Below are positions 4,690-64,000 of a DNA stretch of 64,000 nt, in pieces. Positions within the stretch are counted from its first letter, which is position 1; the number at the start of each line of letters is the position of its first letter. This DNA is from a virus. The notes beneath the pieces are model-generated. The model saw only the letters and a list, made by a program, of their open reading frames with translations, searched no databases and was not told the origin of the DNA. The position numbers were made by a program, and so were the translations under genes. The stretch lies in IMG/VR virus record IMGVR_UViG_3300043411_001777, positions 142,090-206,089 of that record. The stretch is one strand, 5' to 3'.

Positions 4690-4692
4690 CAG

Positions 4693-18718: not shown

Positions 18719-19719
18719 CTACGGGGACGGAATCTGGGGTTGACGTTCACGTCACTATCATTGAGAACAAGGTCTGAGCCATTATCCAACCCAACCGGGA
18801 TGTTGGGGTCTTCCGTATGTCGGACACTCACAGGGGCATTGTTTGCCCGCAACTGACGCTGGCGAAACAGCGCCAAATTGGCCTCTTGAAGTTGATCCGG
18901 ATCCGAGGCGTCAATGAACGAATCCATTTCCTGACGAGCCTTGGGCGGAGGCGGAACGTTTGACGGAATGCTAGGGGCAAAAGCCGTGGGGGGCGGGGCT
19001 ACTTCCTTAGGAACTAAAGGTTCTCGCTTCCCTACGGCTCGGGCATTACCGCTTAGGGGTGTCGTTGCCTTGGGGGCCGGGGGAGGCTCCACGGGCTCCG
19101 CGGGAGCTGTCTTAAACACTACGGTGGGTTCTGCCTCAGCAAGGCTCATCCCGCCTTGCTGCCGAAGTTGGTCGGTGTAAGACAATGAGAGCTTACGCTT
19201 TTCCTCCAAACGCTCAATCTGGGCCCTAAGACGATCAATTTCCAGATCGATATCAGCGGGTTCAAATTTGATTGCAGCCTCTACGCGCTTTTCCATCCGC
19301 TCAACAAGAGCAACGTACTTCGTATAGACTCTTGCCTGCAAAGGGGGACCCCATCTCTCAATCAGAGGACGGATTGCTTGCGAACGGGGCTGTTTAATAG
19401 GCCGTCCATTCTCGTCTTCTCCAACCTCCACAAATTCGACCCCGCTAAGATCAAGGGAGCCGATCTTGACAATCGAGGCTGCTAACGCGTGAATTCGGAA
19501 CAGTCGCGCCATTTTACCAAAAGCATCAGACACCTGATATCGGTCATCAGCGTCCTTTATGTCCTCCAGAGCTGTTGAGGCCATCTCTGTAGCCTCGTCA
19601 TGTTCCGTAGAGGACATAATGCGAAGAGTGACAGGAATGTCCTCAACATAGAAAGTTTCTTCGTCCTTACCAAGCTTTTCTAGCTTGGCAAAGGCCGCTT
19701 CAAGCACGTTTAGATTCAT
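18715..19719 (-). CDS. Probable tail assembly chaperone
   Basis: 334 residues from an ATG preceded by AAGGGA, better supported than earlier in-frame starts. The N-terminal 150 residues are a mixed fold beginning MNLNVLEAAFAKLEKLGKDE with a TLRIMSSTEHDEA segment, typical of phage proteins that read as tail chaperones. A coiled coil follows (LEIDRLRAQIERLEEKRK), then a long Pro/Ala-rich linker. It lies between the tube gene and the tape measure and is separated from the tube by a terminator, which would lower its dose relative to tube subunits. Confidence 0.5.
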   Translation of the reverse strand: MNLNVLEAAFAKLEKLGKDEETFYVEDIPVTLRIMSSTEHDEATEMASTALEDIKDADDRYQVSDAFGKMARLFRIHALAASIVKIGSLDLSGVEFVEVGEDENGRPIKQPRSQAIRPLIERWGPPLQARVYTKYVALVERMEKRVEAAIKFEPADIDLEIDRLRAQIERLEEKRKLSLSYTDQLRQQGGMSLAEAEPTVVFKTAPAEPVEPPPAPKATTPLSGNARAVGKREPLVPKEVAPPPTAFAPSIPSNVPPPPKARQEMDSFIDASDPDQLQEANLALFRQRQLRANNAPVSVRHTEDPNIPVGLDNGSDLVLNDSDVNVNPRFRPRR

Positions 19720-19751
19720 TGGGTTTCCCTTAAGTAGAGGCGCAAAACAAG

Positions 19752-19781
19752 ACGAGGCAGGGGGATTAGCCACTGCCTCGT
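19752..19781 (-). terminator. Rho-independent terminator after the tail tube gene
   Basis: Reading the minus strand, a nine-base stem (ACGAGGCAG with CTGCCTCGT) encloses a 12-base loop and is followed by CTTGTTTT. It lies between the tube stop at 19809 and the chaperone start at 19719, so it can uncouple high tube expression from the lower-copy downstream genes. Confidence 0.75.
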
Positions 19782-19808
19782 ACTTTACCGCCTACCTAGG
19801 GTCACCTA

Positions 19809-20642
19809 TTAGGTGTTAATTGCACCCAAGGCACTTAGAGCCGCAGAACCAAAGTTACCAGCACCTTGTCCAAGAGAGGCTAGGGCCTGGTTTGCATACC
19901 GGATGGAGCCCTTCTGACCAACGGTCGGGTCGTTACCGGAAGCGATGAACTCACCATAGGCACTTGCGAAATCATGAACATCAGTCATAACAAGCTGACC
20001 AGACTCCATAATCGCTGCGGAATCCTTTGAGAAGGTCACTTCATACGAAGTGAACCAGCAAGCCTCATACAGGGTAACAATGGCACTGTGCCCACGGTTT
20101 GCACCGGGACGGCTCTTACCGTCATTTGTCACTTGAGGGAAGGTTGCGACCTTAATACCACCGTCAAACTGGCCTGGCGTTCCACCTTGGCCGTTGTTGT
20201 AGCCAACGTTTGCACCGTCAAGGTCAAAGTCCGCTAGGGAGCTAAACACGATTTGCTGCTCGATATCGAACGGCCAACGGTGGTGAGCGATAGAACGAAC
20301 AGCACCGTCAACACCCGCGGCATAACCCGTTGCCTGCCAGAGGTTGCACAGATAAAGCATCGCCCGCTCACAACTTCCGGTGTAGTCCGTAACACCGACA
20401 ACCTGCTCAGCGATCTTATCGCCAAACCCGATTCCTCGAATCGTCTCCTGCTGGCGAGACTGCGAAGGGCTGAAGGTGCTCATCGCACCCATTTGATGGA
20501 GAGAGGTGCTATCCCCATAGTGCGGAGTAAGGATCTTCACCTTCTGCGAAATCGCCACGCGAGTTTCCGGAGAAGCGCCTCGATCATAAATTGGGGAAGT
20601 CCCGCCGACTCCGCCCTGTGGGTTCCTATCCTGATTTGGCAT
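19809..20642 (-). CDS. Tail tube protein (putative)
   Basis: 277 residues. It follows the sheath gene in transcription order and precedes the chaperones and tape measure, the canonical place for the tube subunit of a contractile tail. The sequence alternates beta strands and short helices with a Gly/Gln-rich loop near residues 150-165 and no catalytic motif. A GGAGA eight bases before the ATG gives good initiation. It is bracketed by hairpin terminators on both sides, consistent with a separately regulated high-copy structural gene. No clear family motif was recognised, so the name depends on context. Confidence 0.6.
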   Translation of the reverse strand: MPNQDRNPQGGVGGTSPIYDRGASPETRVAISQKVKILTPHYGDSTSLHQMGAMSTFSPSQSRQQETIRGIGFGDKIAEQVVGVTDYTGSCERAMLYLCNLWQATGYAAGVDGAVRSIAHHRWPFDIEQQIVFSSLADFDLDGANVGYNNGQGGTPGQFDGGIKVATFPQVTNDGKSRPGANRGHSAIVTLYEACWFTSYEVTFSKDSAAIMESGQLVMTDVHDFASAYGEFIASGNDPTVGQKGSIRYANQALASLGQGAGNFGSAALSALGAINT

Positions 20643-47821: not shown

Positions 47822-48660
47822 CCGCGCCGCCTAGAACAGGTCTGAGGGCCTGGATCAACCTCACCTTTCCAATACGTGGTGACCAATCGAACCGATCCAC
47901 GCCCATCCGACCGAAAAACGATCGTCAATCCAATTTTAGGATCCGTCCACTCAACAGCATCCGTCATGAGTTGCTTGGTGAGAAAGTCAAACATCGGGCT
48001 TCTAGTTGACTTTAGGTCACTCAACTTCTTGCTAAAGGACTGCAAGGCCAGTCGGATTTCAGGGACCGTAATGCCGCGTAAATCCATTCTGAACTGCACA
48101 TGCGAGCTTAGGCTCATCTCTCGAAAAAGCCCAGCCCCCCGTTCGCCTTCTATCTTGTAGATACGAGCGGCTTCCTGATTGCCTAAATCGTCACCGTCTT
48201 CTACCTTTTCGATTAGGAATGCTCTTTCTGAAGGTTGGCGAACCTTGTCCTCGATCCGATCAGTAACAAAGCACGTCCCGCCCGGATAACCCAACGGTGG
48301 GCTCAGGTCGGCTTTACGCAAAAAAGACGCCGCAACCTTACTGGCCGAGGGCGTCTCTAATGCCTGCTCTACTACGTTTCGGTCTTCAATCGAAAGACGT
48401 GTCTTGAGTGAGGATTTCCCAGAAAGCACCAAAGCGTAGGAGAGGCGCTCCAAATGGCGCTCCAACTTATCCAACCTCTGAGGCACATCCATAATAAGGT
48501 CTCCAGCAATTTGGTAGACCTTTTCCTTTTCCTCGGAAGCCTCGATCAACTGGGTTACCCTGTTTAAGGCCAACCGCAATCTATGGGCTTCAATGCTGGC
48601 CGCAGAAACCCCTTCCGTTAGGAGTGACCATTCCGCTGGGCTTTCTGCCATTTTCTTCAT
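47818..48660 (-). CDS. Virion-cluster protein with DUF4258-like C-terminus
   Basis: 280 residues from ATG at 48660; an upstream ATG at 48693 would place a hairpin inside the gene. Residues about 40-110 are helical. The C-terminal 100 residues have a pattern of SSHVQFRMDLRGITVPEI, then TIVFRSDG and VRLVTTYWKGE, resembling DUF4258/RelE-like small nuclease folds (H-x-x-x-RM-x-x-RGI). Whether it is a nuclease, an assembly protein, or both is unclear. It overlaps the SWIM gene by four bases. Confidence 0.5.
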   Translation of the reverse strand: MKKMAESPAEWSLLTEGVSAASIEAHRLRLALNRVTQLIEASEEKEKVYQIAGDLIMDVPQRLDKLERHLERLSYALVLSGKSSLKTRLSIEDRNVVEQALETPSASKVAASFLRKADLSPPLGYPGGTCFVTDRIEDKVRQPSERAFLIEKVEDGDDLGNQEAARIYKIEGERGAGLFREMSLSSHVQFRMDLRGITVPEIRLALQSFSKKLSDLKSTRSPMFDFLTKQLMTDAVEWTDPKIGLTIVFRSDGRGSVRLVTTYWKGEVDPGPQTCSRRRG

Positions 48661-51182: not shown

Positions 51183-51512
51183 ATGCTTACCATTCGAGTG
51201 CGCGATTTCACCACAACTCCAGGCCCTGGATTCAAAACCGAAGGTCCGTTTTCCGGGGAAGAGTTTCGTGAACGCTATTTACAGCCAGCCCTTCTTTCTT
51301 GGCAGAAGGCCCGTTGCGCTACACCGATTACCGTCAATATGGACGGTTCCGAATACGGTTATAGCTCCGCCTTTCTACGCGAAAGTTTCGGACCGCTCGC
51401 CCAGCGTTACGGGACTCGATTCGTCCAACGAGCTTTCCGCATCGTGACAGAAGAAGAGCCTGGGCTTGAAATGGAGGTGTGGTTCTGCGTGGAGAACTAC
51501 TGGGTCAATTGA
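51183..51512 (+). CDS. STAS-like DUF4325 protein
   Basis: 109 residues. The pattern IRVRDFTTTPGPGFKTEGPF, then SGEEFRERYLQPAL, ITVNMDGSEYGYSSAFLRES and a late FRIVTEEEP strand match the DUF4325 STAS-like family. Members are small signalling or regulatory domains often next to kinases or ATPases; no kinase is adjacent here. It is preceded by the strong hairpin that contains its ribosome-binding site and converges with a small minus-strand ORF. Confidence 0.8.
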   Translation: MLTIRVRDFTTTPGPGFKTEGPFSGEEFRERYLQPALLSWQKARCATPITVNMDGSEYGYSSAFLRESFGPLAQRYGTRFVQRAFRIVTEEEPGLEMEVWFCVENYWVN

Positions 51513-51675
51513 CTGGATCCATTTCTGTAACCGCCCCAATCATGCTCAGGTGCGTTAACATAGCGCGTACAGCACGCTCACGGGCTTCTACGAAGCCCTC
51601 GCTTTTCTGAAAAAGGCAATCCCTTGGGCCCACACATGGGCACTCCCCCTTCTCGGAACCACCCTCGCAAGTCAA
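51505..51675 (-). CDS. Small cysteine-rich ORF in frame after a UGA
   Basis: From TTG at 51675 to TGA at 51505 (56 residues), containing CEGGSEKGECPCVGPRDC and a helical FVEARERAVRAMLTHL. It lies in the same frame as the zinc-ribbon protein at 51703-51897, directly after that gene's TGA, and no ATG precedes it. It may be a TTG-started protein, a readthrough extension of the zinc ribbon, or the result of a stop mutation. Cysteine spacing argues that the sequence has been selected as protein. Confidence 0.4.
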   Translation of the reverse strand: MTCEGGSEKGECPCVGPRDCLFQKSEGFVEARERAVRAMLTHLSMIGAVTEMDPVN

Positions 51676-51702
51676 CTTGCAAAACTTAGCATACGGTCGA
51701 AA

Positions 51703-51897
51703 TCATGCACGGGAGCGCTCCGGTTGTTCGGTCAAAGTCAAAAAGCCCTGCAAGCCTGAATAGCAGACATCACAGAATAGCTGGTCCTCGAACGCCACAG
51801 TCTCCCCACAACGGGAGCACTCTGGAACCCAAAGCCCACGTTCACGTTCTGGCCGCGTGTCCCGTTGAGGCAACGGCCCGAGATACCGGAATTTCAC
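51703..51897 (-). CDS. Small zinc-ribbon protein
   Basis: 64 residues. CSRCGETVAFEDQLFCDVC is a C-x-x-C...C-x-x-C zinc ribbon. GTG at 51897 overlaps the HD gene stop (GTGA). It is followed in frame by a cysteine-rich ORF after its TGA. Probable operon member; function unknown. Confidence 0.65.
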   Translation of the reverse strand: MKFRYLGPLPQRDTRPERERGLWVPECSRCGETVAFEDQLFCDVCYSGLQGFLTLTEQPERSRA

Positions 51898-52499
51898 TGC
51901 CCCAAAGCCATCATTAGGCTTGCCGCACGAATCAGAAACGCAGACTCCACTTCTTCAGGTGGGAGCTTCTCAATCTGAATCGTAGGGTCAGGCTCGGGAA
52001 GAGCCCCCCAAGGGGGGAAGGGGACCTTCAAAAGAGCACGAGCCTCTGTTGCACAAAGGATCATGTCCGCCTTATGAACTTCTGGGGGTGGGGGCCAGTC
52101 AAACCCAAACCTGTCCGCGATTACACACATCAATGTGTGCTCGTAATCCCGATACCCACCAAAGGCGCTTTTAATCGGCGAGGGTACGTCCACCAGCGCA
52201 TACTCACTAGCATCATGAAGAAGCCCAGTCAACTGCAACCTCTTGTTCTCTGGCTGCCAACGCTCAAGCAGTTGAGATACGAGGATACTGTGGTATCCGA
52301 CAGAGTAATGCCATTTACAATGTCCAGCAAACCGGCATTGTAAAGACAATGCATGCGCAATATCCTCCATTGCAATTTGCTCAGGCTTGGGGTTTAGTGG
52401 GTGAAGCTTCAGCCCGCTGTAGGTCTGAATCCAGGCATTGTCCATTGCCTCTCGGGACATAAGAGGCCTAGCAATCACTTCTCGGGACATAAGAGTCAA
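51894..52499 (-). CDS. HD-domain phosphohydrolase (YfbR-like)
   Basis: 201 residues from TTG at 52499, with AAAGGAG seven bases upstream; ATGs 9 and 39 bases later are alternatives. The HD pattern is clear: FAGHCKWHYSVGYHSILVSQ supplies the first His residues, LTGLLHDASEYALVDVPSP the HD pair, then KSAFGGYRDYEH. YfbR-like members are 5'-deoxyribonucleotidases or related hydrolases. It follows the kinase gene in one operon. The start region has a 30-base tandem duplication repeating LMSRE, so the start choice affects whether both copies are translated. Confidence 0.8.
   Translation of the reverse strand: MTLMSREVIARPLMSREAMDNAWIQTYSGLKLHPLNPKPEQIAMEDIAHALSLQCRFAGHCKWHYSVGYHSILVSQLLERWQPENKRLQLTGLLHDASEYALVDVPSPIKSAFGGYRDYEHTLMCVIADRFGFDWPPPPEVHKADMILCATEARALLKVPFPPWGALPEPDPTIQIEKLPPEEVESAFLIRAASLMMALGQ
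52450..52495 (-). repeat. Tandem 30-base duplication at the HD-gene start
   Basis: A 16-base unit, TCTCGGGACATAAGAG on the plus strand, occurs at 52450-52465 and 52480-52495. In the minus-strand frame it gives LMSRE twice, ten residues apart. Each copy carries an ATG, so either could be used. Confidence 0.75.
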
Positions 52500-52503
52500 G
52501 ATG

Positions 52504-52520
52504 ACGCTCCTTTAGAGCGT
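52504..52520 (-). promoter_or_regulatory. Small hairpin over the HD-gene ribosome-binding site
   Basis: On the minus strand ACGCTC and GAGCGT pair around a five-base loop. The ribosome-binding site AAAGGAG occupies the loop and 3' arm, about seven bases before the TTG start at 52499. Confidence 0.5.
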
Positions 52521-52527
52521 ACTACCC

Positions 52528-52986
52528 TTAAAACCGAACGCGGATCACCCGAACAAAGCCCTCCCGAACAGAAGGAGGCTCCATCGTCAGCTTTTGCGCC
52601 ATCGTAAGGATGACCTCGTCAGGTACCCTGCGATCAACCGTACGCGCCTCGTTGCGCTCCAACGCCACCAGAATCGGGGTTTCCATCAGGACCGCCTCAA
52701 CCGGCACACGTGCGCGCCAGGCAGCCCGCAAAAGCGGTGCCCGACTCATGCGTGTGGTAAAGGTGGCGTCGAAGTACACTGCACCGGCTTCCTTGTTTTT
52801 GGAAACCCAAGTGCTCTTACCTGAGGCCGGGATGCCCACCAGCAAAACCAGCTTACGGACCCGTCGATCAGTCAGCACAGCATCCAACTTGGCCATGCTC
52901 TTACGCCATGCGCTCGCCGCACGCTCTTGCGACCAGACGTACTGGCCGTCCTCAGTATAGAGGTAATGGTCAGGGGAAATGATCAC
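52528..52986 (-). CDS. P-loop polynucleotide kinase-like protein
   Basis: 152 residues from GTG at 52986, which overlaps the HAD gene stop (GTGA). Walker A GIPASGKST is at about 51-59. Before it is a block with SPDHYLYTEDGQYVWSQERA, and after it VYFDATFTTRMSR, ALERNEARTVDRRVP and PPSVREGFVRV, the last parts of which match T4 Pnkp-type or AAA_33 kinases. In those enzymes the D-x-Y-x-Y-x-W block normally comes after Walker A, so the order here may be permuted. It probably phosphorylates RNA or DNA 5' ends. It lies next to an HAD phosphatase and a CCA-type enzyme. Confidence 0.7.
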   Translation of the reverse strand: MIISPDHYLYTEDGQYVWSQERAASAWRKSMAKLDAVLTDRRVRKLVLLVGIPASGKSTWVSKNKEAGAVYFDATFTTRMSRAPLLRAAWRARVPVEAVLMETPILVALERNEARTVDRRVPDEVILTMAQKLTMEPPSVREGFVRVIRVRF

Positions 52987-53456
52987 GTACGCACCAAATG
53001 AGGAACACACTCAACCCCGGTGCCCTCCACGAACTTGCAGAAGGACACCAGATGGTCGGGCCGATCCTCCCAAATGTGAACCACGCCAAAATCGAACTTG
53101 CTCAGATAACTCCTGAGTACCGCCAGCTTGAACGTTTCCGTTCTCGTGGAACCTCCAGGAGCTAAATGGACACGATCGAATACCAGCCCGACCGACTTCA
53201 TTAGCTCAGGAACACGCCACCGGAAATTCTTGTCTGTCCTCCCCGTTGCTAGAACGGCCAACACGTTCTGGTCTGCAATAGACCTACGGGCTGCCCGTAC
53301 CGTGGATTGGATCCACATCGGCTCAGGAGGCTCAGGTGGCATGAAGGGCTCTTCCAAGGAATGAGGGTGGGACCACCAATCGCCCTTCCAATCCTCGGGT
53401 TGAGGTGGGGACCGAAGCAATGTACTGTCCATATCATATAGGTGCAATTCAAGCAT
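52983..53456 (-). CDS. HAD-superfamily phosphatase, RNA-repair type
   Basis: 157 residues. HLYDMDSTLLRSP holds motif I (Asp8, Asp10), LATGRTDKNF motif II-like, FK (Lys110) the basic residue, and HIWEDRPDH (Asp131 region) motif IV. The WWSHPHSLEEPFMPPEPPEP block and overall layout match Swiss-Army-Knife HAD proteins predicted to act in RNA repair, possibly as 3'-phosphatases. It overlaps the CCA-type gene by eight bases and the kinase gene by four, so phosphatase, kinase and nucleotidyltransferase are translated together. Confidence 0.75.
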   Translation of the reverse strand: MLELHLYDMDSTLLRSPPQPEDWKGDWWSHPHSLEEPFMPPEPPEPMWIQSTVRAARRSIADQNVLAVLATGRTDKNFRWRVPELMKSVGLVFDRVHLAPGGSTRTETFKLAVLRSYLSKFDFGVVHIWEDRPDHLVSFCKFVEGTGVECVPHLVRT

Positions 53457-54657
53457 GGTCCCTCAGCAATCTTTCAGTCAACCCCCGGTCAAAAAGGGAG
53501 GGGTCCTCTAACAGGAAATCACGAGCTTTCGAAGTCAAAACCCCAATCTGGGGGCCTTTTAGGCTCAATTCTTTGATCAGCCTTGGAAAATCAGCCACTT
53601 TTGCAGGCTGCTTCAACGCATCTAGAAAGGCTTCTGGGCTTTTCAAGCGTGGGAGAATCCTCTGTAACTCGCGTTGCTGCTCGGCAGACAGGAACTTGAT
53701 CCGGTCGTTTAGGGGGACCCCAAGATCCAACAGGTCGAACAGGAGCCCGAGCCGTTGGTTGTTTGACCACCCGGCCAGTGTGGCACGGAAAGCTGGGATC
53801 TCAGTCACCATTTCTGCAACCACATCCAACAGGCCAAGCCGCTTCATTTCAAGCAGCGCCTTTTTAGCGGTCGGCTCCACCAACAAGGTGTGGATTAGTA
53901 GGTCGGAAATCGCGTTGTACGGGACTTTCTTGATAAAAGGCGCGTTTCGTCGAATAGAGGTTTCTGTCTCTTTATCCGCTTTTAGGTTGTATTTGCAGTA
54001 GAATTTGACGGCTCGAATCATCCTTGAGGGGTCATCTCGGAAAGTGATATCGGGGTCCATAGGACATCGAAGCACCCCCTCCTTGATGTCCTGAACCCCG
54101 CACCCCGTGAGATCAATAATGTCGGCCAAATCCGCTTTGTCCGCTACTGAAATCAATTTCATCAAAAGGGTATTGGTGCGAAATTCGCGACGCAAAACGT
54201 CTTGTTCAATCGTGGCAGGCTGAACCTCGGACGGTTTGTACCCCTTGCCTCCCGAACCCCCATATGATTCGGAGCGGGCATTTGCAATTTCGATGTTCTC
54301 CCCGCGCAAATTCGATGAACCGAGGAACCAATCCTCGGTTACAGTTAAGATAGCCACCCCGTAATTATTGGTTGCCAAATTACACTTGGCTGGAATAGCC
54401 AGCATTAACTGTCGAGCCACCCACTCTGAGTCATGCCCCATGGCGATAGAATCAACCACAAGGTCCAAGTCCTTAATGTCCAATCCCAGGATGAGGTTTC
54501 TGGGAGCACCCCCCACCAAGTACACGTACTCTCCGACGGGCTCCCCGGTTTTTGAGCGAGTTTTTTTGGACCACTGCCCTAAAAACCTCATCAATGCACG
54601 AGAGGCATCATCCGTCATCCCCTGCTTTAGGTAGGCATCCGCGACTTTTTTAGGCAT
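53449..54657 (-). CDS. CCA-adding/poly(A) polymerase-type nucleotidyltransferase
   Basis: 402 residues from ATG at 54657, with GAGAGGG about five bases upstream. YLVGGAPRNLILG (Gly-Gly about 49-50), DLDLVVDS (catalytic Asp about 63 and 65), RREFRTNTLLMKL, and DPSRMIRAVKFYCKY match class II CCA-adding enzymes and poly(A) polymerases, with a helical C-terminal half. It likely extends or repairs tRNA 3' ends, though poly(A) or other tail addition cannot be excluded. It overlaps the endonuclease-like gene by eight bases and the HAD gene by eight. Confidence 0.85.
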   Translation of the reverse strand: MPKKVADAYLKQGMTDDASRALMRFLGQWSKKTRSKTGEPVGEYVYLVGGAPRNLILGLDIKDLDLVVDSIAMGHDSEWVARQLMLAIPAKCNLATNNYGVAILTVTEDWFLGSSNLRGENIEIANARSESYGGSGGKGYKPSEVQPATIEQDVLRREFRTNTLLMKLISVADKADLADIIDLTGCGVQDIKEGVLRCPMDPDITFRDDPSRMIRAVKFYCKYNLKADKETETSIRRNAPFIKKVPYNAISDLLIHTLLVEPTAKKALLEMKRLGLLDVVAEMVTEIPAFRATLAGWSNNQRLGLLFDLLDLGVPLNDRIKFLSAEQQRELQRILPRLKSPEAFLDALKQPAKVADFPRLIKELSLKGPQIGVLTSKARDFLLEDPSLFDRGLTERLLRDHA

Positions 54658-55492
54658 GTAACCCTCTCTTCGCATAACACTTGGAACATTGACCCCTCAC
54701 TTGCCTGTTTCGGTTAACAGAAGGGCAAGAGGAGCACTTAAATTGAGAATTCTGGGTCAATCGGGGAGTGACAGGGCTCTTTAGGTCAACCCCGGAGCGT
54801 TTACGCCCAACACATCGAGAACAAAGCCCAAAGGCGTGGTGCTTTACGTCCGTTCGATTGCAGCCTGAACAAACAAATCGACCTAGGCTATGAATGGCGG
54901 TTAAATCTACCCCACTCTTAAAGACCCCTATCTCGGACGTATGGATCCCTCTTACAGAGAACCCGAGGGATTCCAAATATGTCAATTTTTTGGCAAAGTT
55001 AGTTTGATATTCGGGGCCGTAAATCTGGTGGTCCCACATGCCCAGGTATTCCCATATTTCATTACCCGCTAACAGCCAATCCACTCGGAAAGGACCGATC
55101 TGTTTTTGGAACTCGTGTGGGACGTTCCTTGCGTGTAACCACGCGTCTATTATTGCCTCATCGTAATACGCCCCTTGGTTTTCGGATGTTCGATACAACA
55201 TCCCATAGGGCGGGATATTGCGACGACGGCGTTCCTTATGTACAAGCCCTTTACTACACCCTAGTATATCCGCCAAGTGTTGATCTGTTAAGTCCCCTAA
55301 CCCTACAGAATCCCATTCGATATTGTAGCTGGGAATGGTCCTGAACGGCGGGATACCTCTCGATCTACGAGCATTCAGCACAGCGGTTTGCGAAACCTCA
55401 AACCGACGAGCAATGTCACAATCAGGGACTTTTCCGAGGTCCGCAACCGAATCCCACTCCACCATATCAACTTTGAGCGGACCGCCCCTCAC
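54650..55492 (-). CDS. HTH and zinc-ribbon protein with endonuclease-like core
   Basis: 280 residues from GTG at 55492. Two helix-turn-helix-like repeats come first (DIARRFEVSQTAVLNARRSR and LADILGCSKGLVHKERRRR). Residues about 120-200 have FRVDWLLAGNEIWEYLGMWD, an Asp and Glu pattern compatible with a PD-(D/E)XK or related nuclease active site. The C-terminus has two zinc ribbons (CSGC...CSRC, CSSC...CSKC). This combination resembles freestanding homing endonucleases of phages. It sits between a 28-residue ORF and the CCA-type gene within an overlapping operon, so it has either been domesticated or recently inserted. Catalysis is unproven. Confidence 0.55.
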   Translation of the reverse strand: MRGGPLKVDMVEWDSVADLGKVPDCDIARRFEVSQTAVLNARRSRGIPPFRTIPSYNIEWDSVGLGDLTDQHLADILGCSKGLVHKERRRRNIPPYGMLYRTSENQGAYYDEAIIDAWLHARNVPHEFQKQIGPFRVDWLLAGNEIWEYLGMWDHQIYGPEYQTNFAKKLTYLESLGFSVRGIHTSEIGVFKSGVDLTAIHSLGRFVCSGCNRTDVKHHAFGLCSRCVGRKRSGVDLKSPVTPRLTQNSQFKCSSCPSVNRNRQVRGQCSKCYAKRGLHA

Positions 55493-55575
55493 AGCACCCT
55501 CCGCTCAAATTCAGCTTTGGCATCCAGCTTAAGCGTAGCCAACAAGTAAAACGTGCATTTTTCAAAAGCCCTCAT
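55489..55575 (-). CDS. 28-residue ORF joined to both neighbours
   Basis: ATG at 55575 overlaps the upstream stop as ATGA and its TGA overlaps the next start as GTGA, so both ends use four-base overlaps. The peptide is MRAFEKCTFYLLATLKL plus eleven charged residues ending RRVL. Its exact fit argues that it is translated; it may simply serve as a coupling bridge. Confidence 0.5.
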   Translation of the reverse strand: MRAFEKCTFYLLATLKLDAKAEFERRVL

Positions 55576-56114
55576 CGGTCAAACCCCAAGGCCTCGTAGT
55601 TGTACTTTGGGACGAAAACTTCCCAGAAATCTCTGTTGTACCGGCCATTTGCTCGGGAAACCTTCTTAGCCCAACGCAATAGGTCCGAACTATGTACCAA
55701 GAACCAACTGTTAACACGCCCCCGTACTGCACGGGGCCCTAAATCAAAATGCGTCCACAGGAAACCTTGGTACCGGAACTTACGCAAACCTTCGTGCTTT
55801 AGTTGGTCTAAGCGTGTTACAACCCCCGGACGGCCCTTAGCCTTCAAGCGTTCCCGTCGGTTATCTAGACTTCGGGGGGACGAGTGTTCTTCCGCCAGCT
55901 CCTCAAAGTTACCCGACACAGGATTCGACCCCAAAAGGAAAGGCTCTATCATCGGCCACAGGAAGGCGTAATAGCCGGTCTCTGGTGGCGCATGGAACCC
56001 ACCCTTCCCAGTGGGGGGCCGTGAATTCAGACCCCCTACACGGGCCAGAATAAGGGTCCCCTGAGAAGGTGGGAGCACCCCTTTGAAAGACAGACCTTCC
56101 CCAGAGCGACTCAT
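55572..56114 (-). CDS. Hypothetical basic protein of 180 residues
   Basis: Basic and aromatic-rich, with FLWPMIEPFLLGS, LDNRRERLKAKGRPGV, FRYQGFLWTHFDLGP and a C-terminal YNRDFWEVFVPKYNYEALG. No known motif was seen. It shares an operon with the end-healing genes. Function unknown. Confidence 0.55.
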   Translation of the reverse strand: MSRSGEGLSFKGVLPPSQGTLILARVGGLNSRPPTGKGGFHAPPETGYYAFLWPMIEPFLLGSNPVSGNFEELAEEHSSPRSLDNRRERLKAKGRPGVVTRLDQLKHEGLRKFRYQGFLWTHFDLGPRAVRGRVNSWFLVHSSDLLRWAKKVSRANGRYNRDFWEVFVPKYNYEALGFDR

Positions 56115-56158
56115 TTACAGCCCCACCACTTCTGCATAGAAACCATGCCAACTCTAAT

Positions 56159-56755
56159 CTATAGCTGGCTTACCGCTGAGGGTCGGAACTCCGCATGCTC
56201 GGGATAAACCCCCGGCGCGAACACGAACCCGAACTCCCCCTGAACGTACTCTGCCTTCGGCACCAGGAAGTAGCTCTGAAGAGTATCCGCCCCCCGACCT
56301 CCGACCTTGGCGCAGACAGCCACGAACCCAGCCGGCACGTCCGGATGCCAGTCCCCCCAAGCCGCCAACACGTCGTAAAGGCGAGGGCTATCCTCCTGAA
56401 ACTTACGACGACGAAGCTCGCGGCTATCCTCCAACGTGAGGACCACACCCGTGACAGCCTGATATGTGTCCGGGTCACCATCCTTCATCGTGCTGTGAGC
56501 CGCCGCCAGCGAATCCTCATCCCACACAGCGGGGAACTTCGAGGCGAAGGTGATGGCGACGATCGCCCAATCACAATCCTCCTCATACCAACCGCCACGA
56601 CGGCGCCAGTGGGCGTCCACCTTGGAATTGGCGAGACGGTCCAGCTTGTATCCGCCATGGCCCGGAGTGTTCACGAGGATGATGCCAGGGGCAACTTCAC
56701 GAGCGAAGTCAACCACGCCCCAAGGACTACGCTTACCAACAAGATTCTCAGTCAT
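56159..56755 (-). CDS. DUF7007-like protein
   Basis: 198 residues from ATG at 56755, seven bases after AGGGAGA; earlier in-frame ATGs have poorer spacing. SPWGVVDFAREVAPGIILVN, TPGHGGYKLDR and WYEEDCDWAIVAITFA match the phage/plasmid DUF7007 family, whose function is unknown. The C-terminal part has alternating strands. It reads from the minus strand downstream of the 56-base repeats. Confidence 0.65.
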   Translation of the reverse strand: MTENLVGKRSPWGVVDFAREVAPGIILVNTPGHGGYKLDRLANSKVDAHWRRRGGWYEEDCDWAIVAITFASKFPAVWDEDSLAAAHSTMKDGDPDTYQAVTGVVLTLEDSRELRRRKFQEDSPRLYDVLAAWGDWHPDVPAGFVAVCAKVGGRGADTLQSYFLVPKAEYVQGEFGFVFAPGVYPEHAEFRPSAVSQL

Positions 56756-56769
56756 CTTCATTCTCCCTG

Positions 56770-56886
56770 TTACAGGGTAAATACCCGTGAACCCATAATC
56801 CTTAGGGCCTATTTTCACTATAGGCCCCGTTACAGGGTAGATACCCGTGAACCCATAATCTTTAGGGTCATATTTTCACTATAGGC
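56770..56886. repeat. Tandem 56/57-base repeat with promoter-like core
   Basis: Two copies, 56770-56825 and 56830-56886, share GTTACAGGGTA, ATACCCGTGAACCCATAAT and an identical TATTTTCACTATAGG. That last block contains CACTATAGG, the core of T7-class promoters, on the plus strand, and TATAGT, a -10-like element, on the minus strand. Each copy also has GGGTA...TACCC self-complementarity. It lies between divergent genes at 56755 and 56917 and most likely carries promoters and regulatory sites. Confidence 0.65.
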
Positions 56887-56916
56887 TTAGGGTCATAGTA
56901 CCAAGGAGGAGGAGCA

Positions 56917-57162
56917 GTGAAATCCTATACTGAATTGAACCAAAGAATTGCGGCCAAATCGGGATCAAACCTGCAAACAGCAGCAATCGATGATGCTTTA
57001 ACCCAAATTACTTGGATGCATCGACGCTTACAGCTTTTGGAAGAGAGCTTAACTAAAGCGCAATCGGCTTTAGAAAAAGGCGAACGTCCAAGTATGGGGC
57101 AGATAGTGTCGCTTTCAGCCGATGTGAAATCGTTTCATTCAACTTTGGAGAAATGTGTGTGA
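56917..57162 (+). CDS. Small helical coiled-coil protein
   Basis: 81 residues from GTG with an extended AAGGAGGAGGAG site. It is almost all helix (LNQRIAAKSG, DALTQITWMHRRLQLLEESL, VKSFHSTLEK) and likely dimeric. It is the first plus-strand gene after the tandem repeat. No family recognised. The following 106 bases before the SNF2 gene end have no convincing gene. Confidence 0.6.
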   Translation: MKSYTELNQRIAAKSGSNLQTAAIDDALTQITWMHRRLQLLEESLTKAQSALEKGERPSMGQIVSLSADVKSFHSTLEKCV

Positions 57163-57268
57163 GCATGAACCAGAGCAAACTTTCCCGGCGCTCCCTCCCC
57201 CTTGACCTCACCTGAACGATAAAAACAAGAAGCGTATCCTATCTGCGGTCTACACCGAATTGAGCTGA

Positions 57269-59311
57269 TTACATCAGCGCCAAATGAGCTGTGCTGATAA
57301 CGTGTACCGACTTGCCGTCAATCTCAAAATCGTTCAACATCCACGGGCACAGTAGGATGATCGAATCCAAATGAGCCAGATACCGGCGAACCTGCCGGTA
57401 TACCTCAGACTTATCCCCCTGGATCTTACACTCCAAACCAACCCGACCAAACTTGAAATCGATCGTGCTATCCTCATCTAGGACCGCTTCCCTAGTAAAC
57501 TCCCAGCCCTCCGTCAAAGCCAAAGCTTTCAACCTAGGCTCCAAAGCGTCCTGCATTACCTTTTCATCCATAGTCGGATAGGTGGCACTCGCAATGCTAG
57601 CCTCGATCTTAGCAATAGCCTCTGACTTCGCCGTCTGACCCGCGAACATCCCCAGCTTATGCTTTTGCAGGAAATCAGCCGCTAGATTTAGAATGCGAGA
57701 CTGCGGAACTTCCGTAGACTCAGCCCCAATAAGGTCATTGATTCCATTGAGTTGGTCTTTCTTGACCCCGAGAATCTCCAACATAGGAGGGTCTGACCCG
57801 TCATTCACCACCACAAAGATAGCGTTGACCGTATTAGCCTGCCGGTCCCGTAAGAGCCGGGCAATACACTGCCGAATTACTGACGGGCTCCAATCCAGCT
57901 CCCCGAACACACAGGTGCTAGCCACTTCCTGTAGCCCGTCCAACCCCTGCCCAGAGCGCAGTGACATAACGAAAACGCGGCAGTTCGGATCATCCCGGAA
58001 CTTCTCAAAACTCTTCTGCTTTTCAGCCGGACTCTCTGCCCCAGTGTAAAAGACCGGATTGAACGCTTTTAGCTCTTTACGCCACACGGAATAGCAATCA
58101 TGATGCCATCCAAAGAGGACCACTTTCTTCTCTGAATCCAAGAGCCCAGAGACAACCTCCGCAGTGGCCTTAGCTTTGGCGATCCCGGTTGCTTGGCGCA
58201 GCTTCAAATCGAATTCACGGGCCGCGCGCCCAGCTTCCTCAAAGCCCCCTAGAAGACTTCTCTGGGCCAGGGCCGCTGCAACAGCTTCCATAGCCTTCAA
58301 TGCGTCAAGATCCGCATCTACAGTCAGAACGATTTGATTGATCGGGTCCAGCTCACGGCCGACATCCACACGGGTACGCCGAATCATCATTCCGTTGTTC
58401 CGGAGAAAAGCCCCCAACACCTCAGGTTCCCGGACATATTTCTCGTACCGACACCACTCTGTCAAGAATTCTTGACGGGTCCCCAGAGCCCCAGGACGGA
58501 TAATGTCCATTACCGCCCAAATCTCTTCCCCGTAATTGATAATGGGGGTGCCACTCAATCCAGTAACGCGGGTTGCGGCCTCGCTTAACCGGGAGGAAGC
58601 ATCGTATTTCTTAGTGCCAAGACGCCTCAGATCGTGGACTTCATCAAAGATGAGGGTTTTTATCCCCAGCCGGTGTAGCTCATCCGCCCAAGCGGCTATT
58701 CGGCTATAGGTCGTTATGTAGTGGGTCCGATCCTCAGGAAGAGCGGAGGTCTTAACCCCATAGATGATATGAGCCTTTGTTGAAGGCATGAAGCGCTGAA
58801 GCTCGGACTCCCATTGACGACAAAGGTGGGTGGGGCAGACAATGAGGGCAGGTAAAGCCTCGGGTAGAGCCGTAATACCAATAGCGGACGCCGTCTTACC
58901 CAAGCCCAAATCGTCGCCGATTAGCAGGCGCCCAACCCCTTGCGCAAGGGCAACAGCCTCTAACTGATAGGTCCGAAGAGGGATAGCCAACTCAACAGGC
59001 TCGTAATCCCCCTTACGGATGCGGTCTAACGCCAATGCGGCCTTATCATATTCTTCCACACCCGAGGAAAGGAATTCTCGGTCCTTGTCCTCCATATCGA
59101 TCGTAAAGCGGGATAGGAACCAATGGATATCCTTGGCGGAATTAGCGTTGTGACGGATAGCTTTCTTGTTCTTGGTGTACTTACCCGGGCCTTTATTGAG
59201 GGCTTTCGGGAAAATACGGCCGAACAAACCCATGACGTAGGGGTCAGCATCCAAAATCCAATCGAAGGTCTTGCCGACCTTGTGTTTGTATATCCGACCA
59301 CTAACTTGCAT
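57269..59311 (-). CDS. SNF2-family helicase with C-terminal nuclease-like domain
   Basis: 680 residues from ATG at 59311 with GAGG five bases before. Motifs: LRTYQLEAVALA, GDDLGLGKTASAI (Walker A), IVCPTHLCRQW, LIFDEVHDLRRLG (DEVH), GLSGTPIINYGEE, then C-terminal VFVMSLRSGQGLDGLQ and SVIRQCIARLLRDRQ. The last 60 residues hold STIDFKFGRVGLECKIQGD, a D...E-x-K pattern expected of PD-(D/E)XK nucleases, followed by YRQVRRYLA. A helicase-nuclease fusion is inferred; nuclease activity is not proven. It is divergent from the 142-residue gene. Confidence 0.8.
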   Translation of the reverse strand: MQVSGRIYKHKVGKTFDWILDADPYVMGLFGRIFPKALNKGPGKYTKNKKAIRHNANSAKDIHWFLSRFTIDMEDKDREFLSSGVEEYDKAALALDRIRKGDYEPVELAIPLRTYQLEAVALAQGVGRLLIGDDLGLGKTASAIGITALPEALPALIVCPTHLCRQWESELQRFMPSTKAHIIYGVKTSALPEDRTHYITTYSRIAAWADELHRLGIKTLIFDEVHDLRRLGTKKYDASSRLSEAATRVTGLSGTPIINYGEEIWAVMDIIRPGALGTRQEFLTEWCRYEKYVREPEVLGAFLRNNGMMIRRTRVDVGRELDPINQIVLTVDADLDALKAMEAVAAALAQRSLLGGFEEAGRAAREFDLKLRQATGIAKAKATAEVVSGLLDSEKKVVLFGWHHDCYSVWRKELKAFNPVFYTGAESPAEKQKSFEKFRDDPNCRVFVMSLRSGQGLDGLQEVASTCVFGELDWSPSVIRQCIARLLRDRQANTVNAIFVVVNDGSDPPMLEILGVKKDQLNGINDLIGAESTEVPQSRILNLAADFLQKHKLGMFAGQTAKSEAIAKIEASIASATYPTMDEKVMQDALEPRLKALALTEGWEFTREAVLDEDSTIDFKFGRVGLECKIQGDKSEVYRQVRRYLAHLDSIILLCPWMLNDFEIDGKSVHVISTAHLALM

Positions 59312-59330
59312 CGCCACCTCACGCACGCTA

Positions 59331-59366
59331 TGCTGCGGTGTATAATACCCCGGAGGGAGGTGCGCG
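59331..59366 (+). promoter_or_regulatory. Divergent promoter-like site
   Basis: TGCGGTGTATAATACC includes a consensus -10 TATAAT on the plus strand, followed by GGAGGGAGG and the ATG at 59367. A related TGCGGTAGTATA occurs upstream of the phosphoesterase gene at 49615-49628. No good -35 is visible at normal distance. Confidence 0.5.
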
Positions 59367-59795
59367 ATGAATCACGAACGGACGGTCCGATCAATACTGG
59401 AAGAAGCGTTGGACAACCTGGGGGACGCTGCCAGAGAGGCGGGCGGAGACTACATCAAAACTCTTCCGAATGAGGAGTTTGACGAACAGGATCTGATCGT
59501 CTCAGACGACCCCGTTCTCATCGCTATCGGCAAGGCTATGCTTTCCGTCTTTGGAGTGCTCGACACCCTGCCAGAAGAACCTCCCGAAGAATGGATAAGG
59601 GAACACATCCATCCGATTTGGCATCCGGATGAGGAGCCCCCGCCCAGGGCGGTTCTAAGGGGTGCCTTAGAGGCTGCAAGGCTACAAGGGGCCCTGCCGA
59701 GTCCTGTGATCGCTGTAGAACTGCCGGAAATCCCCAGCCTTATAGGCGCTGACGTTCTACGGGCGAAGCTAAAGGCAGACGAAAATGTTAATTGA
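59367..59795 (+). CDS. Hypothetical acidic protein
   Basis: 142 residues, acidic, with a helical N-terminus (VRSILEEALDNLGDAAREAG) and Pro/Glu-rich middle (LPEEPPEEWI, DEEPPPRA). No known family. A GGAGGGAGG site precedes the ATG. It is followed by a short hydrophobic ORF that overlaps its end. Confidence 0.6.
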   Translation: MNHERTVRSILEEALDNLGDAAREAGGDYIKTLPNEEFDEQDLIVSDDPVLIAIGKAMLSVFGVLDTLPEEPPEEWIREHIHPIWHPDEEPPPRAVLRGALEAARLQGALPSPVIAVELPEIPSLIGADVLRAKLKADENVN

Positions 59796-59916
59796 CCTTA
59801 TCATGGTGAGCGTTTACATCCTAGACAATCGAGCTTGGGTAGCACTACTATGGCGTAACCTGTTGTTGCGACAGCAAGCTAAAGGCCCACAGTACGGTAG
59901 CTTCATGATAGGATAA
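59785..59916 (+). CDS. Small 43-residue hydrophobic protein
   Basis: ATG at 59785 overlaps the preceding gene by 11 bases and the frame ends just before the receiver-domain gene. The sequence MLIDLIMVSVYIL and AWVALLWRNLLL suggests a short transmembrane or membrane-associated helix. It fills the 124-base gap exactly and is probably translated. Confidence 0.5.
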   Translation: MLIDLIMVSVYILDNRAWVALLWRNLLLRQQAKGPQYGSFMIG

Positions 59917-59919
59917 GCC

Positions 59920-60273
59920 GTGATCATTTTTCTTGACGACAATCCGGAACGGCACAAGAGGTTCCTACGCGCCCACATTGGGGAATGTGTTTGGCAAGCC
60001 TACACCGCCCCTCAAGCTATCGAGCTGCTCTCTAAGCACAAGACCACCGAGAGTGACGAAATCTGGCTAGACCACGACCTTAACGGAGAGGTTTTCGTCG
60101 ACTCCAATCGGTCGGATACCGGATTTGAAGTCGTACGCTGGATTTGCAGCAACCTACCCAATATCAAGTGCCCAATTTTCGTCCACTCACTAAACGATGA
60201 AGCTGCACCGCGTATGGTGCAAGCTCTTCAAGCCGTTGGCTACGAATCTGATTGGATCCCCTTTCACTTCTGA
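59920..60273 (+). CDS. Cyclic-phosphate-type receiver (cREC) domain protein
   Basis: 117 residues from GTG. IIFLDDNPERHK (Asp6, Asp7), EIWLDHDLNGEV (51-54) and IFVHSLNDEAAPRMVQALQAVG match the cyclic-phosphate processing receiver-like family, in which these positions form a non-canonical active site rather than a phospho-acceptor. The family is predicted to act on 2',3'-cyclic phosphates in RNA repair. The kinase, HAD and CCA-type genes lie 3-7 kb away on the other strand. No DNA-binding domain is attached. Confidence 0.75.
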   Translation: MIIFLDDNPERHKRFLRAHIGECVWQAYTAPQAIELLSKHKTTESDEIWLDHDLNGEVFVDSNRSDTGFEVVRWICSNLPNIKCPIFVHSLNDEAAPRMVQALQAVGYESDWIPFHF

Positions 60274-62062: not shown

Positions 62063-62419
62063 TTACGTGTATAGGCTCAGCCGGTGCTTTTTCAACCAGG
62101 CAAGAGCCTCGTTTCCTACTTCAAGGGCCGCAGCGATATCTTGCCGAACCTTAGTCACCCGATTCAAAATCGTAAGCGGGTTTCCAGTCTCATCTGGATA
62201 TGCCACCGTTATGGTGCCGAGTCCGGATTGGCCAACTTCCAATTCAGATACCCAACCCCCACCAAGCTTATCCAAGCCCAGACCAAACTTCGTCCCCAAG
62301 GCATAGACATCCCCAACGGGGATACCTATTGACAGTAGGTACTCTTCCAGAGCCCGAGCTTGGGCCTGTTCCCCAACTTCTACCCTTTGAGCCACCTTAC
62401 GGATTAGTTTTCGCATCAT
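62063..62419 (-). CDS. Small protein coupled to the ADP-ribosyltransferase
   Basis: 118 residues, starting ATGATG that overlaps the transferase stop. N-terminal helices (KVAQRVEVGEQAQARALEEY) and a beta part (WVSELEVGQSGLGTITVAYP). Tight coupling suggests a partner or regulator of the transferase, but this is inference. Confidence 0.6.
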   Translation of the reverse strand: MMRKLIRKVAQRVEVGEQAQARALEEYLLSIGIPVGDVYALGTKFGLGLDKLGGGWVSELEVGQSGLGTITVAYPDETGNPLTILNRVTKVRQDIAAALEVGNEALAWLKKHRLSLYT

Positions 62420-63549
62420 CGTCTCCTCATTCTGCGATAGATAACCGTAAAATCGTCAACCCACTCTCCATAGTAGAGGTTTTTGCTAAGGGCAGACTTG
62501 ACTTCATCAGCAATAAGGAAACGCGGGAGGTTAGGCTTCCCTTTAGTCTCCCAGTCATTAAGGGGGCTGAAAACCAACTCGCCAGAGTTGGCATCCCCAT
62601 TCTGGCGAAAAGTGTATCGGAAATAGTTCCCCAAAGGAGAGTCTGGAGCCTTACGCTCATTGAACTCTGCTATTTCTCGCTCAATATCCCCGAAAATGCT
62701 ATAGACTTTGGTGGTCAATCGGACATCCGGCATAAGAATGATCTCGCCCTCATTGCCGTGCTGAAACTCCACCTTCTCCAATCCTGGATGAGTTAGGTCT
62801 ACAAGAATCTGACTAGGAGCAATCTTCGCCCCGATTACGTAACCACCCCAGCCGTCATAATCTTTCTTCGCCTTCATACGGCTCAGAAACCCGAACATGG
62901 CCGTATTCTGGGTTTCTGAAGCAGAATACCTTCCGAACCTCTCCGCCACAACCTTAGACGTTGTCCAAGACGAGAACCGCTTTGACTCGAACGGAAAAGC
63001 CTTCCCAGAAGCAAACCTTTCATGGAACGCCACCATGGACCCTATATCTGAAAACCGAATCCCACGGTAATAAATACGGGCGCCGGGAGGGCGGAAAGGC
63101 TCAAGCTCGGCAATCTCATCCGTGGAGAACCTGCCCGAGGGCCCACTGTTATTGCTTACCCACGCTGTCAACAGCTTTCGGGTTGAGGCAGTAAGCTTGG
63201 CTGGCTTAAGCCTAAGCTGGCGAGCCATAAGCTTCTTTAGGGTATCAAAATCCCAAATCCAGGAGCGCAACCAAGGCAGAAGGTCATTGGGTCGGTAATT
63301 CACAAAGAAGCGATCCCAATATGGACTCTGAGCCCCCCCCAAGACTTGCTTAAAAGCTTGCGATTGAGCCATCATGTGGATAGCAGGAACCACAGACGGC
63401 CACAACTCGGCTATCTCAGGAGTCATGGTGACCGATGAAGGCAGCAGCAGCGGGGACAGCTTGCGTATTGCTTTTGCTGATTTGGTTGACCCGAAAAGCG
63501 CGTTGTATACGTCAATTAGGGGTCTGCCTATTCCGGCTGTCAGTTCCAT
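62416..63549 (-). CDS. Predicted mono-ADP-ribosyltransferase
   Basis: 377 residues. The R-S-E type motifs are in order: RIYYRGIRF (Arg162), SKRFSSWTTSKVVAERFG (Ser193/Ser194, Thr196/Thr197) and HGNEGEIILMPDVR (Glu267 and Glu269). The final E-x-E is the hallmark of arginine-type transferases such as T4 Alt/ModA and bacterial toxins. The N-terminal 140 residues are helical and may be a targeting domain. Phage enzymes of this kind modify host RNA polymerase or other proteins; the target here is unknown. The gene lies between an M16 peptidase and a coupled small ORF. Confidence 0.75.
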   Translation of the reverse strand: MELTAGIGRPLIDVYNALFGSTKSAKAIRKLSPLLLPSSVTMTPEIAELWPSVVPAIHMMAQSQAFKQVLGGAQSPYWDRFFVNYRPNDLLPWLRSWIWDFDTLKKLMARQLRLKPAKLTASTRKLLTAWVSNNSGPSGRFSTDEIAELEPFRPPGARIYYRGIRFSDIGSMVAFHERFASGKAFPFESKRFSSWTTSKVVAERFGRYSASETQNTAMFGFLSRMKAKKDYDGWGGYVIGAKIAPSQILVDLTHPGLEKVEFQHGNEGEIILMPDVRLTTKVYSIFGDIEREIAEFNERKAPDSPLGNYFRYTFRQNGDANSGELVFSPLNDWETKGKPNLPRFLIADEVKSALSKNLYYGEWVDDFTVIYRRMRRR

Positions 63550-63579: not shown

Positions 63580-64000
63580 CTACTTGCCAATAAGACCCAA
63601 GGTCTTCGGTGCCGCAACAACACGTCGAGCGATAGTCCGGATATCCTCCGCAGTGACATCCAAAATGTCGTCAATCGACGACTGCCAGTAATTGGGGCAC
63701 AACGTGTCCTCCAAAGTAGCCTCCAGCAGCATGTTGAACCGCGACCCCGTACTGTCCAAAGCCATCTTGAGCTTATTGACCGCCTTAACCTTGTTGCGCC
63801 GCAGCTCTTCCTCTGAAATCAGATTCGTTGCCAAGTCAGACATCTGACCCAGAATCAGTTCATGGGCCTCTTCTGCCTGCCATTTGCCAAGCCCGGCCAT
63901 CACCGACAACACCTTGGGGGACGCATCTGTCAATCCAGCATGTACGGAGTACACCAACCCACGCTTTTCGCGAAGCTCCTGGAACAGACGGGACGAGAAA
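63580..64000 (-). CDS. M16-family zinc peptidase, C-terminal part only
   Basis: The frame is open to the right edge, so only about 140 C-terminal residues are visible. The upstream bases encode FSSRLFQELREKRGLVYSV, the highly conserved second-domain motif of M16 peptidases, with the key Arg and Tyr. The HxxEH zinc motif should lie in the missing N-terminal domain. M16 enzymes form clam-shell chambers and cut extended peptides. Presence in a phage is uncommon; maturation of a virion or host-directed protein is possible. Confidence 0.8.
   Translation of the reverse strand, partial: FSSRLFQELREKRGLVYSVHAGLTDASPKVLSVMAGLGKWQAEEAHELILGQMSDLATNLISEEELRRNKVKAVNKLKMALDSTGSRFNMLLEATLEDTLCPNYWQSSIDDILDVTAEDIRTIARRVVAAPKTLGLIGK

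Follow-up and report, generated by a model that had tools for sequence, protein, structure and literature searches.

An overlapping phage operon encoding a CCA-type nucleotidyltransferase, a HAD_SAK phosphatase and a segment-swapped polynucleotide kinase: a candidate part of an RNA end-healing kit

Repair of host tRNAs by phages is best known for breaks in the anticodon. In phage T4, kinase and HAD-type phosphatase activities (Pnkp) are accompanied by a ligase (Rnl1) encoded in the same genome, and two published accounts describe a jumbo-phage RNA repair toolkit of the same enzyme classes as those considered here (PMC7824862, PMC9503650). The stretch analyzed here, referred to as the window, is 64,000 nucleotides long and comprises positions 142090–206089 of the 206,089-base virus record IMGVR_UViG_3300043411_001777, derived from a large phage for which no near-identical relatives were found in INPHARED. 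It contains an operon encoding a nucleotidyltransferase of the CCA-adding/poly(A) polymerase type (hereafter CCA transferase), a HAD phosphatase of the Swiss-Army-Knife type (HAD_SAK) and a polynucleotide kinase whose segments occur in swapped order. Our reading, which we regard as evenly poised between right and wrong, is that this operon, whose core pair would be HAD phosphatase and CCA transferase, belongs to a phage kit for healing and sealing RNA ends.

As in T4, kinase and HAD-type phosphatase activities are expected together with a ligase from the same genome, and the kinase, phosphatase and ligase classes of T4-type repair are all present in the record, though not in one operon. In contrast to T4, kinase and phosphatase are encoded by two genes, the segments of the kinase occur in swapped order, the HAD protein belongs to the SAK family, the one clear-cut ATP-type ligase resembles Rnl5, and the set extends to a CCA enzyme. 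The jumbo-phage set of Iyer et al. 2021 (PMC7824862) includes the same RtcB, ATP-type ligases, polynucleotide kinase, SAK HAD, cyclic-phosphate processing receiver (cREC), 2H, CCA and IF3 proteins. In the passages of that account considered here CCA and HAD are separate items and neither a CCA-HAD-2H polypeptide nor a segment-swapped kinase is described; unlike that set, the 206-kb record has no tRNA genes detectable by ARAGORN and Rfam. This class of toolkit is thus already known from jumbo phages, whereas the segment-swapped kinase and CCA/HAD/2H fusions described below go beyond the preliminary description of the window. Neither the triad nor the swapped kinase was found in those papers whose text was open to search.

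The operon lies on the minus strand, in the order HTH_17 gene, CCA transferase, HAD_SAK phosphatase and kinase, with an HD-domain gene following (Table 1). Successive genes overlap by 26 (HTH_17/CCA), 8 (CCA/HAD) and 28 (HAD/kinase) bases, and the Pfam and PHROG matches of the window genes are far above chance. The preliminary description, made from the letters alone, had placed a kinase-like, a SAK-type HAD and a CCA-type gene in one overlapping operon, and both this arrangement and the identities it gave to these genes and to a cREC gene were borne out. The cREC gene itself was confirmed but not its place in the gene set, as it is 4.4 kb from the operon on the plus strand and therefore belongs to the set only loosely.

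The kinase P-loop (GIPASGKST) satisfies the consensus GxxxxGK[S/T], and the best match of the protein in both sequence and fold is the CthPnkp kinase domain (4gp6). A three-member kinase profile matched the CthPnkp kinase with an E value of 2e-12, and an AlphaFold2 model generated from an alignment of three sequences only (predicted local distance difference test score 88.7, predicted TM-score 0.84) gave 4gp6 as the best Foldseek match (E 3.6e-7, probability 1.0), followed by mammalian PNKP. When aligned by phmmer, the kinase and CthPnkp paired in two pieces, leaving approximately 40 CthPnkp residues unpaired. These lie after the P-loop at about residues 31–76, and they carry the general base Asp38, equivalent to Asp35 of T4 Pnk. 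Two-stretch alignments to AAA_33 and CthPnkp, with the same 40 or so residues missing, had first suggested that an internal deletion had left the kinase dead. This reading was rejected because the N-terminal segment of the kinase is homologous to the missing part.

Evidence for this homology came from two sources. Kinase residues 6–41 are identical at 18 of 36 positions to residues 33–67 of the kinase of Pseudomonas phage IQPL (permutation p ~2e-4); the P-loop of the IQPL protein is at residue 11, so that the matching stretch follows it, and the P-loop regions of the two proteins align separately. Similarly, positions 40–83 of phrog_2071 match kinase residues 7–50 (E 4.6e-4), whilst its P-loop at 14–45 matches residues 50–81. 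The Asp segment is absent from its usual place after the P-loop, its equivalent being found before it, and P-loop and DxT are spaced by 11 residues in the permuted kinases, compared with 48–62 in most others. The swapped order is common to at least five diverged viral contigs (among them L015, L099, L100 and L010, at 39–51% identity), and its recurrence across them led us to reject a frameshift or assembly error as its cause. An end-to-end match was also obtained in L101, where the swapped order is a candidate, and the L010 and L100 kinases fit the canonical Asp segment more poorly. The possibility that L010 is a stop-reassigned phage (table 15) was discarded, since table 11 yields one long open frame. 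No permuted kinase was found in the genome_contigs set with the patterns used, and a PDB search with kinase residues 1–52 returned nothing relevant. Judged by its sequence, the protein is a conserved segment-swapped polynucleotide kinase with the order B-A-C in place of A-B-C, and it is not dead, because the Asp segment has been relocated in front of the P-loop. D14 is the presumed general base, and the protein is predicted to be a 5'-OH polynucleotide kinase acting on RNA. It may be the first segment-swapped polynucleotide kinase to be recognized.

The preliminary description had pointed to loss of key residues from the kinase, HAD protein or nucleotidyltransferase as evidence that would count against it. 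In the kinase the Asp35/Arg38 segment is missing after the P-loop but relocated N-terminally, and the key residues of the other two enzymes are kept. The HAD motifs DxDxT, T and K are represented by D8, D10, T71 and K110, invariant across 19 homologues; the HAD profile gave no useful match when searched against the PDB, and the protein is a predicted RNA 2'/3'-phosphatase. In the CCA transferase the class II motifs GGxxR...DxD, RRxF..N and [E/D]DxxR are all present, with D69 and D71 (DxD) and D214, D215 and R218 (DDxxR) invariant across 22 homologues. The best phmmer match in the PDB was the T. maritima CCA enzyme 3h37 (4e-16), and the top PDB matches of the AlphaFold2 model (score 85) by Foldseek were CCA-adding enzymes (E 1e-12), with global TM-scores of just ~0.5. 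Head-domain motifs and overall fold therefore resemble those of class II CCA-adding enzymes (3h37; the psychrophilic enzyme 6qy6), whereas the window protein belongs to a phage-specific family, whose members among 40 viral loci are mostly 43–54% identical to it and often lie within very long open reading frames (ORFs). The head domain is common to poly(A) polymerase, and matches to the E. coli-type poly(A) polymerase were likewise obtained; the window protein is thus predicted to be CCA- or poly(A)-adding, its sequence being compatible with either.

Further RNA-end genes were identified elsewhere in the record. The preliminary description had seen no ligase, and this held for the window, where a PF09414 search gave no match, but not for the record, the remainder of which proved, when searched as that description had proposed, to encode RtcB, an Rnl5-type RNA ligase and a marginal mini-ligase. 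Alignment of RtcB with P. horikoshii RtcB showed the metal/His motifs DIGCG, GNHF, HSGSR and HGAGR with catalytic residues kept. The closest solved relative of the Rnl5-type ligase is the Naegleria RNA ligase NgrRnl, and its motif I Lys (EKINGKSG) is present. In the 2H phosphoesterase, H37xT39 and H94xT96 are invariant in a set of five sequences that includes homologues from L017, L019, L021 and L052. No KptA/Tpt1 was found in the record. The ligases, the 2H protein and a second cREC, together with the CCA/HAD/2H fusions found elsewhere, strengthen the earlier prediction of RNA end healing.

Table 1. Coordinates of the operon, its neighbours and other RNA-end genes, in window or record numbering
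Feature	Coordinates	Numbering	Strand	Evidence
HTH_17 protein with Cys motifs	54650..55492	window	-	PF12728 E 1.5e-6; upstream of the CCA gene
Class II CCA-adding/poly(A) polymerase-type nucleotidyltransferase, 408 aa	53449..54675	window	-	PF01743 E 2.6e-12; phrog_2244 tRNA nucleotidyltransferase 5e-28
HAD_SAK_1 phosphatase, 157 aa	52983..53456	window	-	PF10307 E 1.1e-18, 68 bits (cut-off 25.6)
Segment-swapped polynucleotide kinase, 160 aa	52528..53010	window	-	PF13671 E 4.5e-12
Relocated acceptor/Asp segment of kinase, residues 6-41	52888..52995	window	-	N-terminal to P-loop
Kinase P-loop GIPASGKSTW, residues 59-68	52807..52836	window	-	Matches P-loops of phrog_505, phrog_2071 and CthPnkp
HD-domain 5'-deoxynucleotidase-like gene	51894..52499	window	-	phrog_318 deoxyribonucleoside 5' monophosphate phosphatase E 4e-58; Pfam HD and YfbR-like matches under cut-off; last co-oriented gene
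cREC, 117 aa	59920..60273	window	+	PF20274 E 3.4e-16, 60 bits (cut-off 27)
Rnl5-type RNA ligase	4612-5592	record		PF09414 E 2.6e-14; N-terminal OB domain
Marginal mini-ligase, 206 aa	18040-18660	record		27.2 bits (cut-off 27)
Second small kinase	47842-48240	record		
RtcB	69043-70353	record		PF01139 E 1.8e-124, full length (profile 1-426)
2H phosphoesterase	94642-95082	record		Two HxT motifs; Pfam match under cut-off
Second cREC	96356-96673	record		E 1.8e-22

To survey the association of these genes in other viral contigs, homologue loci were collected with HAD as bait. Among unrelated viral contigs, L017 has a single 1550-aa frame containing 2H, CCA and HAD domains in that order, and L201 (contig G005) a single 927-aa frame with the order CCA-HAD-2H, all three domains being above Pfam cut-offs. 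HAD-2H fusions were present in L019 and L021, HAD adjoins 2H in L052, and in L032 HAD is followed by cREC. In a diverged group (L033, L034, L037, L041, L043 and L045) HAD is preceded by a CCA-type gene, either immediately or with a single gene between them, and the CCA family was present in nine of the 13 contigs picked by HAD. The closer relatives of the window HAD protein are those fused or adjacent to RNA-end enzymes. No ligase or kinase domain was recognized in the fused CCA/HAD/2H triads, which therefore suggest a ligase-free resetting of the tRNA 3' end. Iyer et al. 2017 (PMC5512222) described polyvalent phage proteins that are likewise large, multidomain, 2H-bearing and near virion genes; in that account the 2H domains never occur with RNA ligases, and RNase or nucleotide-degrading roles were proposed. 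The fusion of 2H with HAD and a CCA transferase seen here speaks rather for the healing of RNA ends and suggests a different, ligase-free role.

These domains were also observed in other settings. CCA or HAD_SAK domains occur in very long ORFs bearing or adjoining a topoisomerase IB catalytic domain (L166, L161, L165, L182, L202, L011 and L038). At approximately 31 huge-phage loci (L013, L014 and L046–L094) a HAD_SAK gene precedes a conserved ClpS-like gene of 93 aa, which adjoins a terminase-like gene. A huge-phage ORF of 1233 aa in L012 (3538-7239) has a CCA transferase at its C-terminal end, and several of its neighbours have a common N-terminal leader resembling M-x-K-F-K-L-F-E that might be a capsid-targeting signal.

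In the proposed pathway, the 2H or cREC protein, supplied in trans, would open the 2',3'-cyclic phosphate left on tRNA by metal-independent nucleases, the HAD phosphatase would strip the phosphate to give a 3'-OH, and the CCA transferase would rebuild CCA, a branch that would need no ligase. At internal breaks the kinase would phosphorylate 5'-OH ends for sealing by the Rnl5-type or small ligase, whilst ends with a cyclic phosphate and a 5'-OH could be joined directly by RtcB. The kit would probably serve to keep host tRNAs usable while host immunity cuts them. The sequences themselves show the families with their key residues, the permutation of the kinase, the co-occurrence of the genes and their fusions; we infer the activities, RNA as their substrate, the order of steps and the role in counter-defence. 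For the operon core the 3'-end reset is favoured because its three activities are those needed to convert a cyclic-phosphate end to CCA-OH. Damage to the tRNA 3' end (the CCA tail) is indicated by the association of CCA, HAD and 2H no less than are the anticodon nucleases envisaged in the preliminary description. A general phage strategy of ligase-free tRNA tail repair (2H/cREC, then HAD_SAK, then CCA), sometimes fused in one polypeptide and reversing defences that attack the 3' end, is put forward tentatively, as something we doubt more than we believe.

Several observations weigh against an end-healing kit built around HAD and the CCA transferase. The 2H, ligase and RtcB genes are far from the operon, so we only infer their action together with it, and the HD gene that follows the kinase looks like one of nucleotide metabolism. 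Permuted kinases of L099, L100 and L015 have no repair genes alongside, approximately 31 HAD loci adjoin the small ClpS-like gene without a repair gene, and several contigs (L011, L038, L020, L161, L165, L166, L182 and L202) have topoisomerase IB fused with, or beside, HAD_SAK or CCA. Finally, tRNA genes are present in 11 of the 14 CCA/HAD contigs tested, many having 17–70 and the maximum being 70.

The alternative that survives best is T4-type anticodon repair, in which HAD and kinase would constitute a split Pnkp, the Rnl5-like or small ligase would seal, and the CCA enzyme would be an extra for exonuclease-nibbled ends. The 28-base overlap of the HAD and kinase genes, the relationship of the kinase to CthPnkp and T4 Pnk, and the presence in the record of two ATP-type ligases as well as RtcB are in its favour, as is the finding, which equally favours our own reading, that canonical relatives of the kinase N-terminal segment adjoin RNA ligase genes. 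However, the operon has no ligase within it or nearby, HAD recurs most tightly with CCA or 2H rather than with a kinase or ligase, and in other contigs the permuted kinase is not accompanied by repair genes; we consider this explanation unlikely. A second alternative is a role in maturing or maintaining tRNAs, in which the CCA enzyme with its partners would finish the 3' ends of tRNAs made during infection and would not be a response to host attack. The numerous tRNA genes of the CCA/HAD contigs mean that such a function could still apply in relatives, but the record has none, and hence the CCA enzyme does not serve to finish phage tRNAs known from it. Contigs G003 (297 kb) and G022 (257 kb) also lack tRNA genes, 2H and HAD would have no obvious call in maturation, and the explanation appears quite improbable.

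Still less probable, in our judgement, is a function in DNA-end or nucleotide metabolism, with HAD and kinase acting on DNA ends or nucleotides and relatives possibly carrying them within virion-delivered polyvalent proteins. This would account for the topoisomerase IB associations and for the dNMP (deoxyribonucleoside monophosphate) phosphatase-like HD gene that closes the run, and DNA is a possible substrate of polynucleotide kinases. Against it, a DNA role of CCA transferases is not known, the cyclic phosphates on which 2H and cREC act are not formed by DNA, and the window phage has no topoisomerase IB match. That the genes are loose neighbours, grouped by chance in a gene-dense early region, is very improbable given that CCA and HAD are fused or neighbouring in several diverged lineages, even though HAD is near CCA in only one of 40 CCA loci (within the fetched flanks) and most huge-phage HAD loci have no adjacent repair gene.

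Other features of the record were noted. An HD_4 protein (16168-16782, minus strand) resembles small alarmone hydrolases (SAHs); it is maybe another guard of the tRNA 3' end, because phage SAH is known to reverse the pyrophosphorylation of CCA ends by toxSAS. Translation genes comprise IF3 (90187-90720), peptide deformylase (14013-14489) and a YqeY-like gene (55674-56153). Three classes of ADP-ribose-processing protein occur in this one phage, namely ADP-ribosylglycohydrolase (19499-20380), NADAR (73602-74354) and Macro (74874-75413); an ADP-ribosyltransferase-like reading of window positions 62416-63549 was dropped, having neither Pfam nor PHROG support. An adenylosuccinate synthetase homologue (71893-73095, plus strand, E 2e-77) could be PurZ-like, and a proteasome-like Ntn hydrolase is encoded at 95744-96283 (minus strand, PF00227 E 5e-7). 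At window positions 63580-63957 an M16-like peptidase C-terminus was recognized by eye; as this ORF runs almost to the end of the record, the phage genome in it may be incomplete or circularly permuted.

As this kinase illustrates, a P-loop polynucleotide kinase can have its Asp-bearing segment moved to the front of the chain, and the swapped segment is a trap for motif-based annotation, which would label such a kinase dead. Cleavage by RuvC leaves a 3'-OH. The cut of Cas12a3 is made by its RuvC domain (PMC12851939), and the CCA enzyme alone could therefore suffice against it. The CCA tails of tRNAs are targets of phage defence by Cas12a3 (PMC12851939) and toxSAS (PMC11559606), and according to the authors of the Cas12a3 study viral tRNAs cannot readily evade CCA-tail cleavage and the means of viral resistance are not yet known (PMC12851939). 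Ligase-free tail repair could be an answer to defences such as Cas12a3, and a CCA enzyme beside a predicted 3'-phosphatase, in a record free of tRNA genes and with fused relatives, is a concrete candidate for resistance to CCA-tail cutting. The gene set points to a way in which phages could reverse host defences based on tRNA cleavage.

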